This document shows, in pieces, positions 5,813-32,068 of a DNA stretch of 37,658 nucleotides. The notes under the pieces were generated by a model that searched no databases, had not been told where the DNA came from, and worked only from the letters and a program-made list of their open reading frames with translations. The DNA lies in the NCBI GenBank assembly GCA_913009315.1, contig CAJVZA010000010.1, positions 1 through 37,658 on the forward strand. The letters are read 5' to 3'. The stretch comes from an uncultured Hippea sp. Its GTDB lineage: Bacteria > Campylobacterota_A > Desulfurellia > JAADFJ01. The position numbers were made by a program, and so were the translations under genes. Position 1 is the stretch's first letter. Each line of letters starts with the position of its first letter.

Positions 5813-7063
5813 TCATACCTCGGCTTTTATCAAATCTTTATATGTTTCCGGCCTTCTAATCACGGAAAACTGATCCTTATCAACGAGAACCTCAGCTATA
5901 TTGGGTCTCGCATTATAATGGCTCGACATACTGAATCCGTACGCTCCGGCACTCATTACAGCTATCAAGTTGCCTTCGGCCATTCGGTCGATGCTTATAT
6001 TTTTAGCCAGAAAATCACCGCTTTCGCATACCGGACCAACTACATCAACCGTGACCTTTCCGCTTCCATTTTTTAAGGTTACGGGAATAATCTTATGTTC
6101 CGCATGATAAAGTGTCGGTCTTATAAGATCCGTCATTGCCGCATCAACAATATAAAACAACTTTTCGCCATTGTCTTTTATATAAAGAATCTTTGTAACG
6201 AGAGCACCTCCTTCTCCAACCATAAACCTGCCCGGTTCGCATATAAGCAGAGCTTCCGGATACACAGAGACAATTCTCTTTGCAATCTCGGCATAGCTAT
6301 CTAAATTAATCACCTCATCATTAAGGTATTTTATACCTATGCCTCCGCCTATATCTATTGTCTCAAGCATTATGCCTGACAATTTAAGCTTTTTCAAAAA
6401 CTCAACAATAATTTTTGCAGCATCATTAAATACGGACAGATCGGTTAGCTGAGAACCGATATGAAAGTGTATCCCTTTGATTCTGATACCTTTCATTGAT
6501 TCTGCGTCTTTGTATAGCTCGAATGCCTGCTCAAGCGGTATTCCGAATTTATATTTTTTCATTCCCGTCGAAATATACGGATGAGTTTTCGGGTCAACAT
6601 TCGGGTTGACTCTTATTGCAATCGAAGCAGTCATACCTTGTGATGCTGCTATATTGTTAATCTTTTTCAGCTCGCTTCGTGATTCTACATTAAATTGGCC
6701 TATGCCGCTTTTCAGAGCATATTTTATCTCTTCTGCAGTTTTTCCGACACCTGCATAAACCATTTTAGACGGTTTGATTCCTCCTGCCAGCGCCTTGTAG
6801 ATTTCGCCGCCGGATACAACATCAGCTCCTGCGCCAAGTTTTGCAAAAATGTTTATAATCGAAAGATTACTGTTTGCCTTGACGGCGTAGGCAATCAGAT
6901 GCCTTATTTTTTCCTTACTTAAAACGTTGTCCAGGCGGTTATAATGCGCCTCAAAACTGCTTTTACTATATAGATAGAGCGGACTGCCGACTTTTTCTAT
7001 TATCGCTTTTATATCGGTATTTTCACAGTGCAGTGTACCTGCTATATAATTAAACGATTCCAA
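5813..7063 (-). CDS. lysA: Diaminopimelate decarboxylase
   Basis: AYAVKANSNLSI (PLP Lys), HFHIGSQL, ICEPGRFMVGEGG, GPVCESGDFLA. Confidence 0.97.
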   Translation of the reverse strand: MESFNYIAGTLHCENTDIKAIIEKVGSPLYLYSKSSFEAHYNRLDNVLSKEKIRHLIAYAVKANSNLSIINIFAKLGAGADVVSGGEIYKALAGGIKPSKMVYAGVGKTAEEIKYALKSGIGQFNVESRSELKKINNIAASQGMTASIAIRVNPNVDPKTHPYISTGMKKYKFGIPLEQAFELYKDAESMKGIRIKGIHFHIGSQLTDLSVFNDAAKIIVEFLKKLKLSGIMLETIDIGGGIGIKYLNDEVINLDSYAEIAKRIVSVYPEALLICEPGRFMVGEGGALVTKILYIKDNGEKLFYIVDAAMTDLIRPTLYHAEHKIIPVTLKNGSGKVTVDVVGPVCESGDFLAKNISIDRMAEGNLIAVMSAGAYGFSMSSHYNARPNIAEVLVDKDQFSVIRRPETYKDLIKAEV

Positions 7064-27829: not shown

Positions 27830-27908
27830 GTATGCCATTGAAACATTGAAAAAAATAATACAATCATTGCTGAAATATACGAATCGCTATGGAATAACAG
27901 GAGAAAAT

Positions 27909-28838
27909 ATGCAGATTCATCTACTCTATTCGCTGGGATGCCCCAAGTGGGGAGAAGCCTTAGAAAGATTAAAGGAAATATTGGTAGAAAACGGAATTAC
28001 ACGAACAATAATTATTACGCGTATACAAAACAGTGAGGATGCGAAAAAATTTAATGCCCACGGCACTCCTTCCATTCTTATTAACGGAAAAGATATCGAT
28101 AAAAGTGTGAGGGGCAAGCCTTGCACATACAGCTGCAGATTTTACATAGACGACGGAAAACTATCAAGAATTCCACCTGAAAAACTGATCAGAGAGGCCG
28201 TAGATGAGGCTTTGAAGAATGAAGGCAGAACTGCAGCACGAAGACTTTTCGCATTAACCGGCGGCATAGCTACAGGTAAATCTACAGTTTTAACAATGTT
28301 CAAAGATATGGGTGCCTATATTATTGATGCAGATAAACTTTCGCATGAAACACTATATAAAAGTGCAGTTGTACATAAAAAAATCGTTGACAGTTTTGGA
28401 AAAGAAGTATTAGACAAAAACGGGATTATTGATCGCAGTAAACTCGGCAAAATAGTTTGGAAAGATGACGACAAAAGGCAACTCCTGGAATATATTCTGC
28501 ACCCTATAATAATCAGCTTCGGTGAAAAAATTATATCGGACATATTGAAACAAAACCCCAATGCTACAATAATTTATGATATTCCGGTGCTGTATGAAGG
28601 AAACTATCAGAACCGATTCAAAAAAACAATATTAGTATATGCAGATTATGAAATTCAGAAAAAAAGACTCATACAGCGCAACAAGATATCGGAAGAAATG
28701 GCGCAGCTGCTTATCTCGAAACAGATTCGTATAGAAAAAAAGTTAGAATTAGCCGATTATATAATAGATAACAGCGGAACAATGGCGCAAACTAAAAAGC
28801 AGGTTGAGCAGGTTTGGGAAGAAATAAGCAATATATAA
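27909..28838 (+). CDS. Thioredoxin-like domain fused to dephospho-CoA kinase (CoaE)
   Basis: N-term MQIHLLYSLGCPKWGEALERLKEIL...HGTPSILINGKDI...PCTYSCRFY; C-term LTGGIATGKSTVLTMFKDMGAYIIDADKLSHE, IYDIPVLYE. ATG 27909 with RBS aggag; in frame with ORF start 27846. Confidence 0.88.
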   Translation: MQIHLLYSLGCPKWGEALERLKEILVENGITRTIIITRIQNSEDAKKFNAHGTPSILINGKDIDKSVRGKPCTYSCRFYIDDGKLSRIPPEKLIREAVDEALKNEGRTAARRLFALTGGIATGKSTVLTMFKDMGAYIIDADKLSHETLYKSAVVHKKIVDSFGKEVLDKNGIIDRSKLGKIVWKDDDKRQLLEYILHPIIISFGEKIISDILKQNPNATIIYDIPVLYEGNYQNRFKKTILVYADYEIQKKRLIQRNKISEEMAQLLISKQIRIEKKLELADYIIDNSGTMAQTKKQVEQVWEEISNI

Positions 28839-29398: not shown

Positions 29399-29887
29399 TT
29401 ACTTTATTTTTACGAATTCTCCTATTTTTTTATTTTTACGAACGTTATCCCAATCGAAATATTTTCCGTTCATAGAAATATAGACACCTGCCGGTAAAGT
29501 CTGAACGAAAGCAAGTGAACTTCCTAAGTTGAAAAGTCCGTCGGAACTGCCGAATTTATAGGGAATCATTGCACCGGTCAATACAATAGTTTTGTTCTTG
29601 ACTCTTTCAGCAAGTACTCGAGCGGTTTTAACCATTGTGTCGGTGCCATGAGTAATAAGAATTTTGTCCGCATCCGTTTTAAGACAATTTTGCGCCACTG
29701 CCTCTCGATCTTCGTCAGTCATATCTAAACTATCAACCATCATTAAAGTTTTAATATCCACTTCTACGCGAGACCGCCCGAGAGCGAGCATTTCAGGCAG
29801 ATGCGTATTTTTAAAAAAGAGTGTTCCGTTAAGTTCGTTGTATTCTTTATCAAAAGTCCCGCCTGTCAAAAAGATTTTAATAGTCAT
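29399..29887 (-). CDS. Single-domain asparaginase-like protein
   Basis: IFLTGGTFDKEY, ILITHGTDTMVKTARVL, IVLTGAMIPYKFGSSDGLFNLGSSL; no C-terminal asparaginase domain. Confidence 0.88.
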   Translation of the reverse strand: MTIKIFLTGGTFDKEYNELNGTLFFKNTHLPEMLALGRSRVEVDIKTLMMVDSLDMTDEDREAVAQNCLKTDADKILITHGTDTMVKTARVLAERVKNKTIVLTGAMIPYKFGSSDGLFNLGSSLAFVQTLPAGVYISMNGKYFDWDNVRKNKKIGEFVKIK

Positions 29888-29915: not shown

Positions 29916-29980
29916 ACATATATGAGACCACTGCACAGTAAGCTGTGAATTTGCTTACTGTGCAGTGGTCTCATATATGT
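29916..29980. repeat. Perfect 28-bp inverted repeat with 9-nt loop (copy B of the repeat family)
   Basis: ACATATATGAGACCACTGCACAGTAAGC (29916-29943) - TGTGAATTT - GCTTACTGTGCAGTGGTCTCATATATGT (29953-29980). Confidence 0.95.
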
Positions 29981-30201: not shown

Positions 30202-31329
30202 TTATTCACTTATGCAACCGCCCTGAACATATTTAGTTCCGCGTTTGATTGATAGCTCAGCCTCCGCCAATTCTTTGCCAAGATAAGCGGCATGATCCAA
30301 TTGCGTAACCCATCCGTTTTCGATGATTGTCCCGTAAATACTTCGAGCATTTTTACCCTCAATTGTTCGCTGCATTGCATTGTCGTAAGTATAATGCTCC
30401 ACAACGATAGTCCGCCTTTCCGATTGCGGAAGAATTACAAAATAACCCGCCTTGTCCATCTCAACTCTATCGGATTCTTTCGCATAAATAATAGGTACTT
30501 CTGAAATTCTGACAGATTTTTTCATTTCGCAAAATTTTTCACAACTACAGGAAGAGGCAATTTTTTGAGAAAGCTCCTTAAGTTTTTCAATAATTTTCTC
30601 TTCATCTTCACAACCAATCATATCTGTGACCTGAACCTGTTTTCTAAAAGCTTCAACTTCTTCATAAGTAACATTTCTCAAAATAGGATGTTTGCCGGGA
30701 GAACCGATTATTCTTCCATTTTCATCTACACCATTTTTCAACACCGAAAGAAGAGTTCTGCCGCTTTGATGTCCTTTCGAATCTTTTCCGGCAACGAGAA
30801 GAAAACGGATCGTTGGATTTGTAATGATATTTTTAATGATTTTACTAATGCCAATATTTTCCGTCTCGGTTTTACCGATAATACAAAGTTCTATAGGCCT
30901 GATGTTAGCAAGCCTTTCAGCAAGATCTACGCTGGCAAGCGTTGAAACAGCAACAGGGCATCCATGACCATCGCAGAATGCATAATATTCTCCGGCGACA
31001 ACAGGCCACTTATGTTCGCCCGCTTCAAAGACATCATACGGCGCTTGAGATTCGCCGGCCTCGGGAAGGGCTTTATAAAAAAAATTCATTGCCTCTGCCG
31101 GAAAACAGTAATCACAACCGAGACAGGCATACTTGATCGGCTTCATCTGCTCCAGCCAATGCCTGATATTTGCAAGTAAGTCCGAGGAAGTTTCTACTTG
31201 CAGAGATGAAGGCAAAGTTCGCAAATTCTCCAAACTCTCTTTCATGCATCCGCATTTTCGACATTTCGGAAGACGCATACCCTCCCGCAGTTCCAATCGT
31301 ATCTTACTTATCAGATCAAACTTGGTCAT
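30202..31329 (-). CDS. MtrA-like (tetrahydromethanopterin S-methyltransferase subunit A-like) / DUF4346 protein with N-terminal Cys domain
   Basis: N-term CRKCGCMKESLENL and CLGCDYCFP; MtrA-like WPVVAGEYYAFCDGHGCPVAVSTL, IGKTETENIGISKIIKNIITNPTIRFLLVAGKDSKGHQSG, GRIIGSPGKHPILRN; C-terminal extension. Confidence 0.82.
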   Translation of the reverse strand: MTKFDLISKIRLELREGMRLPKCRKCGCMKESLENLRTLPSSLQVETSSDLLANIRHWLEQMKPIKYACLGCDYCFPAEAMNFFYKALPEAGESQAPYDVFEAGEHKWPVVAGEYYAFCDGHGCPVAVSTLASVDLAERLANIRPIELCIIGKTETENIGISKIIKNIITNPTIRFLLVAGKDSKGHQSGRTLLSVLKNGVDENGRIIGSPGKHPILRNVTYEEVEAFRKQVQVTDMIGCEDEEKIIEKLKELSQKIASSCSCEKFCEMKKSVRISEVPIIYAKESDRVEMDKAGYFVILPQSERRTIVVEHYTYDNAMQRTIEGKNARSIYGTIIENGWVTQLDHAAYLGKELAEAELSIKRGTKYVQGGCISE

Positions 31330-31445
31330 GTGCCCATTTCTCCTGACAATAATGTCGTCTTACGACTAAGTTTATCTAACAATAAAAGCGGACCGAACAT
31401 AGAAGCTGTACCTTTAACAATCCAATGAAACAATTTGTTAGTCAT
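31326..31445 (-). CDS. Putative 39-aa protein MTNKLFHWIVKGTASMFGPLLLLDKLSRKTTLLSGEMGT
   Basis: RBS AGGAG in the end of the upstream methyltransferase; start 2 nt after its stop; ATGA overlap with the MtrA-like start codon. Confidence 0.65.
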   Translation of the reverse strand: MTNKLFHWIVKGTASMFGPLLLLDKLSRKTTLLSGEMGT

Positions 31446-31447
31446 TT

Positions 31448-32068
31448 TTAATCTCCTCTTTTATAAAGGACATAAATATACGGTCTTGGATCACCAACCG
31501 GATTTATATATGTATAATCAAAATGTGACACAATCCTAAACGATGGGCCAAGATATTCGGATATTTCTTCAATGGAATATCTATGAAGCGTTAAACCGGC
31601 ACATTTGAGTGCGCCTGTTTTTGAAAATTCGGCAAATATAGCGTGACCGCCTAATTTTAATATTGATTTCATGTTCTCGAAATATGCTTTTATGTCATCT
31701 TCATCGGTTAAAAAATGCAAAACCGCCCTGTCAATCCATATATCAACATCCGGTATTGAATTTTGAATTGGTTGAGCGATGTCCTGACAAAGCCAATTAA
31801 TTTCTTCGTATTTATCGCCCAGCCTGTTTTTGACTCGGTTTAGAGCCTTGATACTAATATCATTAAGAACTAATTTTACGCCTTCATTCAAAAGTTCTTC
31901 TATCAGAATCGAGGTTCCTGCCCCCGGGAGAAATACCGTAGAATCTCTCCATTTTGGAATATGATCCAACAATTCCAATGTTTTGGATGCATTCTTTTCG
32001 AACCATCCCAATCTTGAATCTTCCGTACCTGAAAAAATTGCATCCCAATGCTTACCGCTTGATTTCAT
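31448..32068 (-). CDS. Class I SAM-dependent methyltransferase
   Basis: HWDAIFSG...LGWFE start, VFLPGAGTSILIEELL (motif I), DIWIDRAVLHFLTDEDD (motif IV). Confidence 0.88.
   Translation of the reverse strand: MKSSGKHWDAIFSGTEDSRLGWFEKNASKTLELLDHIPKWRDSTVFLPGAGTSILIEELLNEGVKLVLNDISIKALNRVKNRLGDKYEEINWLCQDIAQPIQNSIPDVDIWIDRAVLHFLTDEDDIKAYFENMKSILKLGGHAIFAEFSKTGALKCAGLTLHRYSIEEISEYLGPSFRIVSHFDYTYINPVGDPRPYIYVLYKRGD

Follow-up and report, generated by a model that had tools for sequence, protein, structure and literature searches.

The window, a stretch of 37,658 nucleotides analysed as a whole, encodes a 375-aa protein in which an MtrA-like corrinoid domain is combined with a cysteine-rich N-terminus and a DUF4346 C-terminus. 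We tentatively read this protein as a soluble corrinoid methyl carrier that belongs to the gene pool of soft-metal, notably mercury, resistance; we favour this reading while placing it somewhat short of an even chance. It draws on the fold, the pocket residues, the Cys motif, the metal-operon contexts and the presence of MerA in the genome.

The corrinoid protein and its locus

The relevant features, all on the minus strand, are as follows.

31448 to 32068, minus: class I SAM-dependent methyltransferase, 206 aa (Pfam Methyltransf_12/25/11)
31326 to 31445, minus: 39-aa ORF, probably no conserved gene and at most a coupling leader (no homologue; start and frame lost in sister species G001)
30202 to 31329, minus: MtrA-DUF4346 protein, 375 aa (Pfam PF04208 and PF14251; NCBIfam NF002128; 41 relatives by tblastn)
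31246 to 31263, minus: CRKCGC motif, aa 23-28, with C23, C26 and C28 invariant (36/36 family members)
31105 to 31125, minus: CLGCDYC motif, aa 69-75, with C69, C72 and C75 invariant (36/36 family members)
30550 to 31014, minus: MtrA corrinoid-binding domain (Pfam; AlphaFold match to 5LAA)
30856 to 30864, minus: Thr156-Glu157-Asn158, equivalent to Thr53-Glu54-Asn55 of M. fervidus MtrA (contacts from PMC4915002)
30769 to 30771, minus: His187, equivalent to MtrA His84, the lower axial cobalt ligand (alignment with 5LAA and family alignment)
30223 to 30459, minus: DUF4346 (PterinBD-DUF4346) domain, aa 291-369 (Pfam)

An MtrA-like core and a DUF4346-type C-terminus had been proposed from the sequence, and both are borne out by Pfam: PF04208 (MtrA) matches aa 106-260 (1.5e-38; 132.6 bits against a cut-off of 25) and PF14251 (DUF4346) matches aa 291-369 (7.6e-23). 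NF002128 (PRK00964.1-6) covers aa 7-371 at 1.3e-120, with 403 bits under its cut-off of 568. This end-to-end match means that the architecture is familiar to annotators as 'tetrahydromethanopterin S-methyltransferase subunit A', with no function outside methanogenesis. The threshold of TIGR01111, the equivalog for methanogen Mtr subunit A, was missed (123.5 bits vs 249.15). The protein was expected to be soluble, and a membrane anchor is indeed absent from its 375 residues. Other Mtr subunits are, as proposed, absent from the window; MtrH was not found in the window's own genome (G000) and is absent at the family cut-off in 41 of 43 genomes. The window's genome contains a single PF04208 protein.

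Relatives of the 375-aa protein in the PDB are MtrA structures only. The AlphaFold model of the full protein, built on a 33-row alignment, has a mean pLDDT of 75.6 and a pTM of 0.62, and it matches cobalamin-bound 5LAA with E 1.5e-12 and a TM-score of 0.77 on the target. In a structure search with the full model the MtrA domain alone matched anything, so that the N-terminal and DUF4346 parts are without structural relative.

In MtrA, His84 lies under the cobalt, Glu54 relays to His84 and Asn55 contacts the ring; Thr53, Gly57 and Asn64 contact the nucleotide tail and Tyr18 stacks on the base (PMC4915002). All seven of these 5LAA residues are kept in the window protein and in 36/36 canonical family members. 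Cobalt ligand and relay (His187 and Glu157) are likewise kept in all 36; of 37 alignment rows, 36 keep Thr156-Glu157-Asn158, and only the divergent L048 does not. The position of MtrA Val61 is occupied by Ile, Val or Leu across the family. The KDSKGHQSG stretch, in which the sequence-only reading had seen the cobalt-ligating His, aligns with the His84 segment of 5LAA, and the His is kept. Because the pocket contacts are kept throughout the canonical family, corrinoid binding is very likely and, as judged from its sequence, the 375-aa protein is very probably a corrinoid protein. Other B12-binding domains are present in 43 of 43 genomes searched, indicating that corrinoids are in use there; in G000 one such domain lies in an open frame of 815 aa whose make-up agrees with MetH.

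The two N-terminal Cys pairs were also located correctly (CRKCGC at aa 23-28, CLGCDYC at aa 69-75). Their six cysteines (C23, C26, C28, C69, C72 and C75) are invariant in 36/36 canonical members and likely form a binding site, either for an Fe-S cluster or for a soft metal. The Planococcus copy carries additional CGC repeats. The divergent L048 row has neither the Cys motifs nor several of the corrinoid contacts; its protein (L048 6280-7824) consists of an MtrA-like domain, a thymidylate-synthase-like stretch recognized by eye, and DUF4346.

The three-gene layout is exact. The methyltransferase runs from 32068 to 31448 and ends with TAA, the ATG of the 39-aa ORF follows 2 nt later at 31445, and its TGA overlaps the start codon of the 375-aa gene, which begins at 31329 (ATGA). 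GGAG stands shortly 5' of both the 39-aa ORF and the 375-aa gene starts. The 375-aa protein and the methyltransferase are certainly genuine genes, beyond chance. The 39-aa ORF fared differently: the corrinoid-protein part of the sequence-only reading stands, whereas its conserved tether or subunit was rejected. No homologue of this ORF lies beside any of 41 homologous mtrA-DUF4346 genes, and the matching segment in sister species G001 is degraded, with ATA instead of ATG and a stop 18 codons on. When the sequence of the 118-nt gap is Markov-shuffled, 2.4% of the shuffles contain an ORF as long on that strand, a figure that stands before any correction for this ORF having been singled out; the ORF is not clearly above chance. 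Probably it is at most a coupling leader, and a conserved gene is unlikely.

G001, a species of the same genus, is collinear with the window (DNA identity 93% and 92% on the two flanks). It retains the methyltransferase and has lost the mtrA-like gene apart from a 97-nt remnant of the DUF4346 region, found 3' of the methyltransferase (alignment score 43.5 vs a maximum of 22 in 200 shuffles). The methyltransferase followed by the mtrA-like gene is thus the ancestral order in these two species, and the 39-aa ORF was not maintained. In G002, the mtrA-like gene (63%) lies on one contig, identical with that of locus L010, and a distant methyltransferase (39%) on another.

Several other features of this region were recorded. 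A palindromic GAGACCACTGCACA...TGTGCAGTGGTCTC element flanks the methyltransferase/mtrA-like block on both sides (29926-29970 and about 32269), and a related palindrome piece occurs in G001 near L058 6443-6472, within the region of mtrA-like loss. Where the mtrA-like gene was deleted, G001 has phnX-phnW-like genes (2-aminoethylphosphonate breakdown, by eye; L058 6695-8666). At 27846-28838 of the window, a single frame joins dephospho-CoA kinase to a thioredoxin-like domain at its N-terminus, of the 'DF family (seleno)protein' kind (78 bits against a cut-off of 70); this long frame recurs in G001 (L058 10126-11097). The L-asparaginase frame at 29399-29887 covers no more than the N-terminal half of the enzyme (162 aa) and is short in G001 too.

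Metal-resistance genes around the relatives

Relatives of the mtrA-like gene, 41 in all by tblastn, are scattered over many phyla of bacteria and archaea. Of 25 genomes from the window's own phylum two have the gene, as do 4 of 61 relatives; in Bacteroidota it is rare, with 2 clear matches in 396 genomes. Four plasmids carry a copy, three from Planococcus and one from Paraburkholderia. A search of viral contigs gave 159 pattern matches and no relatives. Such a rare, patchy and plasmid-borne occurrence is what one expects of accessory genes that spread horizontally.

Metal genes surround several of these relatives. In the archaeon BMS3Abin16 (L036/L081) arsR, a gene for a MerB-family lyase, the mtrA-like gene and genes for cytochrome-b5-like and CcdA/DsbD-like proteins are followed by those for a lipoprotein, a NifS-like protein, MerA, ArsR and a heavy-metal P-ATPase, the whole set in one direction (genes without a family match were named by eye). 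The best NCBIfam match of the lyase is SaoL, a MerB-like organometallic lyase (3.2e-27), and MerA scores 561.7 bits against a cut-off of 454.45. In Nitrospira L009, arsR lies 52 nt 5' of the mtrA-like gene, which is followed by genes for an outer-membrane efflux protein (OEP), CusB and CusA; a merA/HMA/MerT/arsR set is found 8 kb off on the same contig. CusA/CusB also occur within 5 kb of the mtrA-like gene in L012 and L013. L029 shows a tightly spaced same-strand series of arsR, mtrA-like, a 173-aa 4TM protein, a Zn/Cd/Hg/Pb-type P-ATPase, SHOCT and a methyltransferase. In five Bacteroidota loci (L015, L017, L018, L020 and L021), genes for a CsoR-family repressor, a 127-aa protein and a 4TM protein precede the mtrA-like gene in this order; in L022 the 4TM protein is fused onto the mtrA-like N-terminus, and in G053/L047 arsR, mtrA-like and 4TM are adjacent. 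The Planococcus plasmids encode, in this order, ArsR/SmtB, an HMA 'cation transporter', a P-ATPase and the DUF4346 protein. A divergent MerR-family regulator stands beside the Paraburkholderia plasmid copy, with CadR-PbrR as its best model (148.5 bits vs a cut-off of 151.45). The metals differ among operons (Hg, Cd/Pb/Zn, Cu), a point against our reading, and the target is perhaps not mercury alone.

The 4TM family, whose motif is GCFLLGCCGSPxLAVY, gave no match in Pfam (one member tested) or in NCBIfam (three tested), and the AlphaFold model of a 4TM protein is poor (pLDDT 53). It was found in 7 of 80 genomes, every one with the mtrA-like gene and at least one copy adjacent to it, and in 0/36 controls. 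Plasmid pPRO1 of Pelobacter propionicus contains an unannotated 4TM copy between a DUF302 gene and that of a heavy-metal P-ATPase. Members of the family were placed at these positions:

L021 3236-3748: 4TM family member
L029 3447-3968: 4TM family member
L022 4494-4931: 4TM family member
L057 about 6001-6306: 4TM family member

Metal markers lie within 5 kb of 12 of the 41 loci, a count that leaves out the plasmid and G053 cases, vs 3 of 78 regions drawn at random from these genomes (Fisher p 1.6e-4); after removal of near-duplicates, 10 of 33 loci remain (p 2.5e-4), and both p-values are optimistic because the metal markers were picked after the loci had been viewed. The other 29 of the 41 loci have no metal marker within 5 kb, in particular those of a Nitrospirota-type clade, in which parA-parB lies 3' of the mtrA-like gene in nine to ten loci (e.g. 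L026 6233-7829). The parA-parB pair was rejected as a meaningful neighbour, being clade-specific, and was read as ordinary gene order. Going by the well-supported branches of the family tree, the metal context must have changed at least four times, once inside the window's own six-row clade, into which L009 falls (97/88 support). Two of the rows that stand for plasmids and G053 have long branches, and their position in the tree is unsure.

No metal marker gene was found in the window itself. The metal context of the family is visible only in relatives, and the window locus by itself would not reveal a metal link; the window's copy would be tied to metals only through its family branch and its genome content. 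As to the latter, MerA above the equivalog cut-off is encoded in G000 (on contig C22, not the window contig), G001 and G002. It occurs in 10/41 mtrA-like genomes vs 2/36 controls (p 0.02), and all ten belong to the window's 18-genome branch (10/18 vs 2/36, p 8e-5); within the window's own clade it is present in 5/6. Since genomes of this branch partly share metal-rich or thermal habitats, the co-occurrence could be ecological instead of functional. MerB was considered as a general partner and rejected: it was found in only 4/41 mtrA-like genomes vs 1/36 controls, which is not significant (p 0.22).

The mer locus of G000 (L179 7985-10831, on C22), conserved in G001 and G002, is unusual in composition: next to a redoxin gene it has one for a membrane protein of 171 aa, which bears a PFLCCTP motif, and one for a MerA-HMA fusion. 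The membrane protein has no Pfam match and was rejected as 4TM-like, as it has no significant match to the 4TM profile.

The methyltransferase also has relatives in metal islands. Its identity is 93% to G001, 76% to G069, and 65% and 62% to two copies in G085; at 60% identity or more, G069 and G085 are its only sources outside the genus, and both are mtrA-like genomes. In G069 its neighbours are P-II, SHOCT, arsR and an SBF/Acr3-type transporter gene. One of the G085 copies lies in the arsR-mtrA-4TM-P-ATPase-SHOCT operon and the other between a CsoR-type gene and that of a P-ATPase. One of five distant plasmid relatives examined adjoins a heavy-metal P-ATPase gene, with arsR nearby. The closest solved structures reach 1e-4 only. 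Because a 62%-identical methyltransferase is the last gene of the L029 operon containing the mtrA-like gene, and because of the ancestral order seen from the G001 remnant, the proposed partnership of the methyltransferase with the MtrA-like protein is plausible.

Possible functions of the protein

According to the reading that we favour, a single polypeptide would unite a Cys-rich N-terminal module (a likely site for Fe-S or a soft metal), an MtrA-fold domain whose corrinoid has His187 beneath its cobalt, and DUF4346, so that the corrinoid could be reduced or fed within the same polypeptide. The gene would belong to a mobile accessory resistance pool for Hg, Cd/Pb/Zn and Cu, with the window's branch concerned chiefly with mercury. 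Cobalt would exchange a methyl group with a soft metal or an organometal: Co(I) might, for example, take over the CH3 of CH3Hg+, the mercury being left for MerA and the methyl passed to a pterin or other acceptor. The DUF4346 end would face the C1-pterin, given its other partners, and the adjacent SAM methyltransferase would be a probable accessory of the same metal-stress island. We infer here that a corrinoid is bound, that a metal is the substrate, which way the methyl is transferred, and that the metal role extends to the window's copy. Demethylation would be preferred over methylation because the neighbours detoxify (MerB, MerA, efflux) and methylation would raise toxicity.

A more specific form of this proposal appears rather improbable to us: the protein would be the methyl acceptor in a MerB-independent, corrinoid/pterin-dependent demethylation of CH3Hg, delivering Hg to MerA and the methyl to C1 metabolism. 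Oxidative demethylation of methylmercury has long been measured in sediments; to our knowledge, no genes have so far been assigned to it.

The strongest competitor of our preferred reading, though itself unlikely, is that the neighbourhood arose by chance, with the 39-aa ORF being spurious and no functional link joining the methyltransferase to a lone mtrA-like gene. The unconserved ORF fits this, as do G001, which retains the methyltransferase and lost the mtrA-like gene, and G002, which carries both genes on different contigs. Yet methyltransferases of 62-76% identity recur in metal islands of two unrelated mtrA-like genomes, once in the same operon. It is less probable that the protein is a general anabolic corrinoid methyl carrier, for instance a donor to a core methionine synthase without folate domain, with the metal neighbours merely fellow accessory genes. 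Such donation has been proposed for methanogen MtrA and MesA. DUF4346 goes with C1-pterin enzymes (its Pfam name includes PterinBD, and there is a match to the dihydropteroate synthase-like TIGR00284), the by-eye thymidylate-synthase-like stretch of L048 is fused with it, and many mtrA-like copies stand alone. On the other hand, the MetH-like frame in G000 makes a methionine bypass unneeded, no methionine gene was seen adjoining the mtrA-like gene, and metalloregulators stand directly 5' of it in several phyla.

Two further explanations keep the metal and change the chemistry. The protein could serve protection or repair, either as a metal-tolerant spare methyl carrier or as a metal sink through its Cys motifs, on the premise that B12 and folate enzymes lose methyls to soft metals and have their thiols blocked by them. 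The six invariant cysteines, the extra CGC repeats of the Planococcus copy and contexts spanning several soft metals agree with this role, but the intact corrinoid pocket would, from its residues, favour catalysis over plain sequestration, and we regard the role as quite improbable. Least probable in our estimate is an HgcA-like methylation of soft metals or metalloids, Hg(II) among them, for export or volatilisation. Methyl-cobalt is known to react with Hg(II). The mtrA-like gene adjoins those of P-type ATPases, of Cus efflux and of the 4TM protein, a SAM methyltransferase is present in two clusters, and HgcA, itself a corrinoid protein (PMC8261052), would be a precedent. Against methylation, the gene is co-operonic in BMS3Abin16 with that of MerB, which would reverse the reaction; methylated mercury is of greater toxicity, and no HgcB-like ferredoxin was seen adjoining the mtrA-like gene.

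Relation to known corrinoid and metal systems

With MtrA of the methanogen Na+-pumping methyl-H4MPT:CoM methyltransferase (MtrA-H), the protein shares the fold, His84, the Glu54 relay and the tail-binding residues. It differs in having neither the TM anchor nor MtrB-H, and in its added Cys-rich N-terminus and DUF4346; moreover, the family described here is bacterial, mostly from non-methanogens, and has metal-operon contexts. Bacterial and cytoplasmic MtrA homologues with mostly conserved His84 were noted by Wagner et al. 2016 (PMC4915002). Soluble methanogen MtrA copies have solubility in common with the present protein, but are 170-180 aa long and without Cys or DUF4346 parts. Likeness to NF002128 is full-length, with the cut-off unreached. 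In Asgard archaea, MtrA-like proteins and MtrAH fusions occur outside methanogenesis, their methyl fate undefined (PMC11291895); these pair with MtrH, whereas MtrH is missing from nearly all genomes searched here.

HgcA and CFeSP are likewise corrinoid proteins with a possible Fe-S partner and a mercury link. Their corrinoid fold is different, however: the manner of cobalamin binding is peculiar to MtrA (PMC4915002), and no similarity to HgcA was found for the 375-aa protein. Regulators, transporters and lyase or reductase partners are common to mer and ArsR/CsoR/CadR operons and to several relatives. We know of no corrinoid protein among mer components. A survey of mer uses 'corrinoid' for HgcA only (PMC8261052). 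In openly searchable literature, we found no MtrA-metal link, no paper combining MtrA, corrinoid and mercury, and no mention of DUF4346. What seems to be new is the association with operons for metal and mercury resistance, along with the coupled 4TM protein and the invariant Cys module.

The operon contexts of the relatives suggest an unrecognised B12-dependent step in metal detoxification. Together with the fully kept corrinoid pocket, the recurrence in mercury, cadmium/lead and copper operons would give bacterial MtrA homologues, previously without a role, a first concrete and testable function, in which vitamin B12 takes part in detoxifying metals. Should a methyl group prove to be transferred to or from mercury, this would bear on which sediment genes beyond hgcAB and merB control methylmercury.
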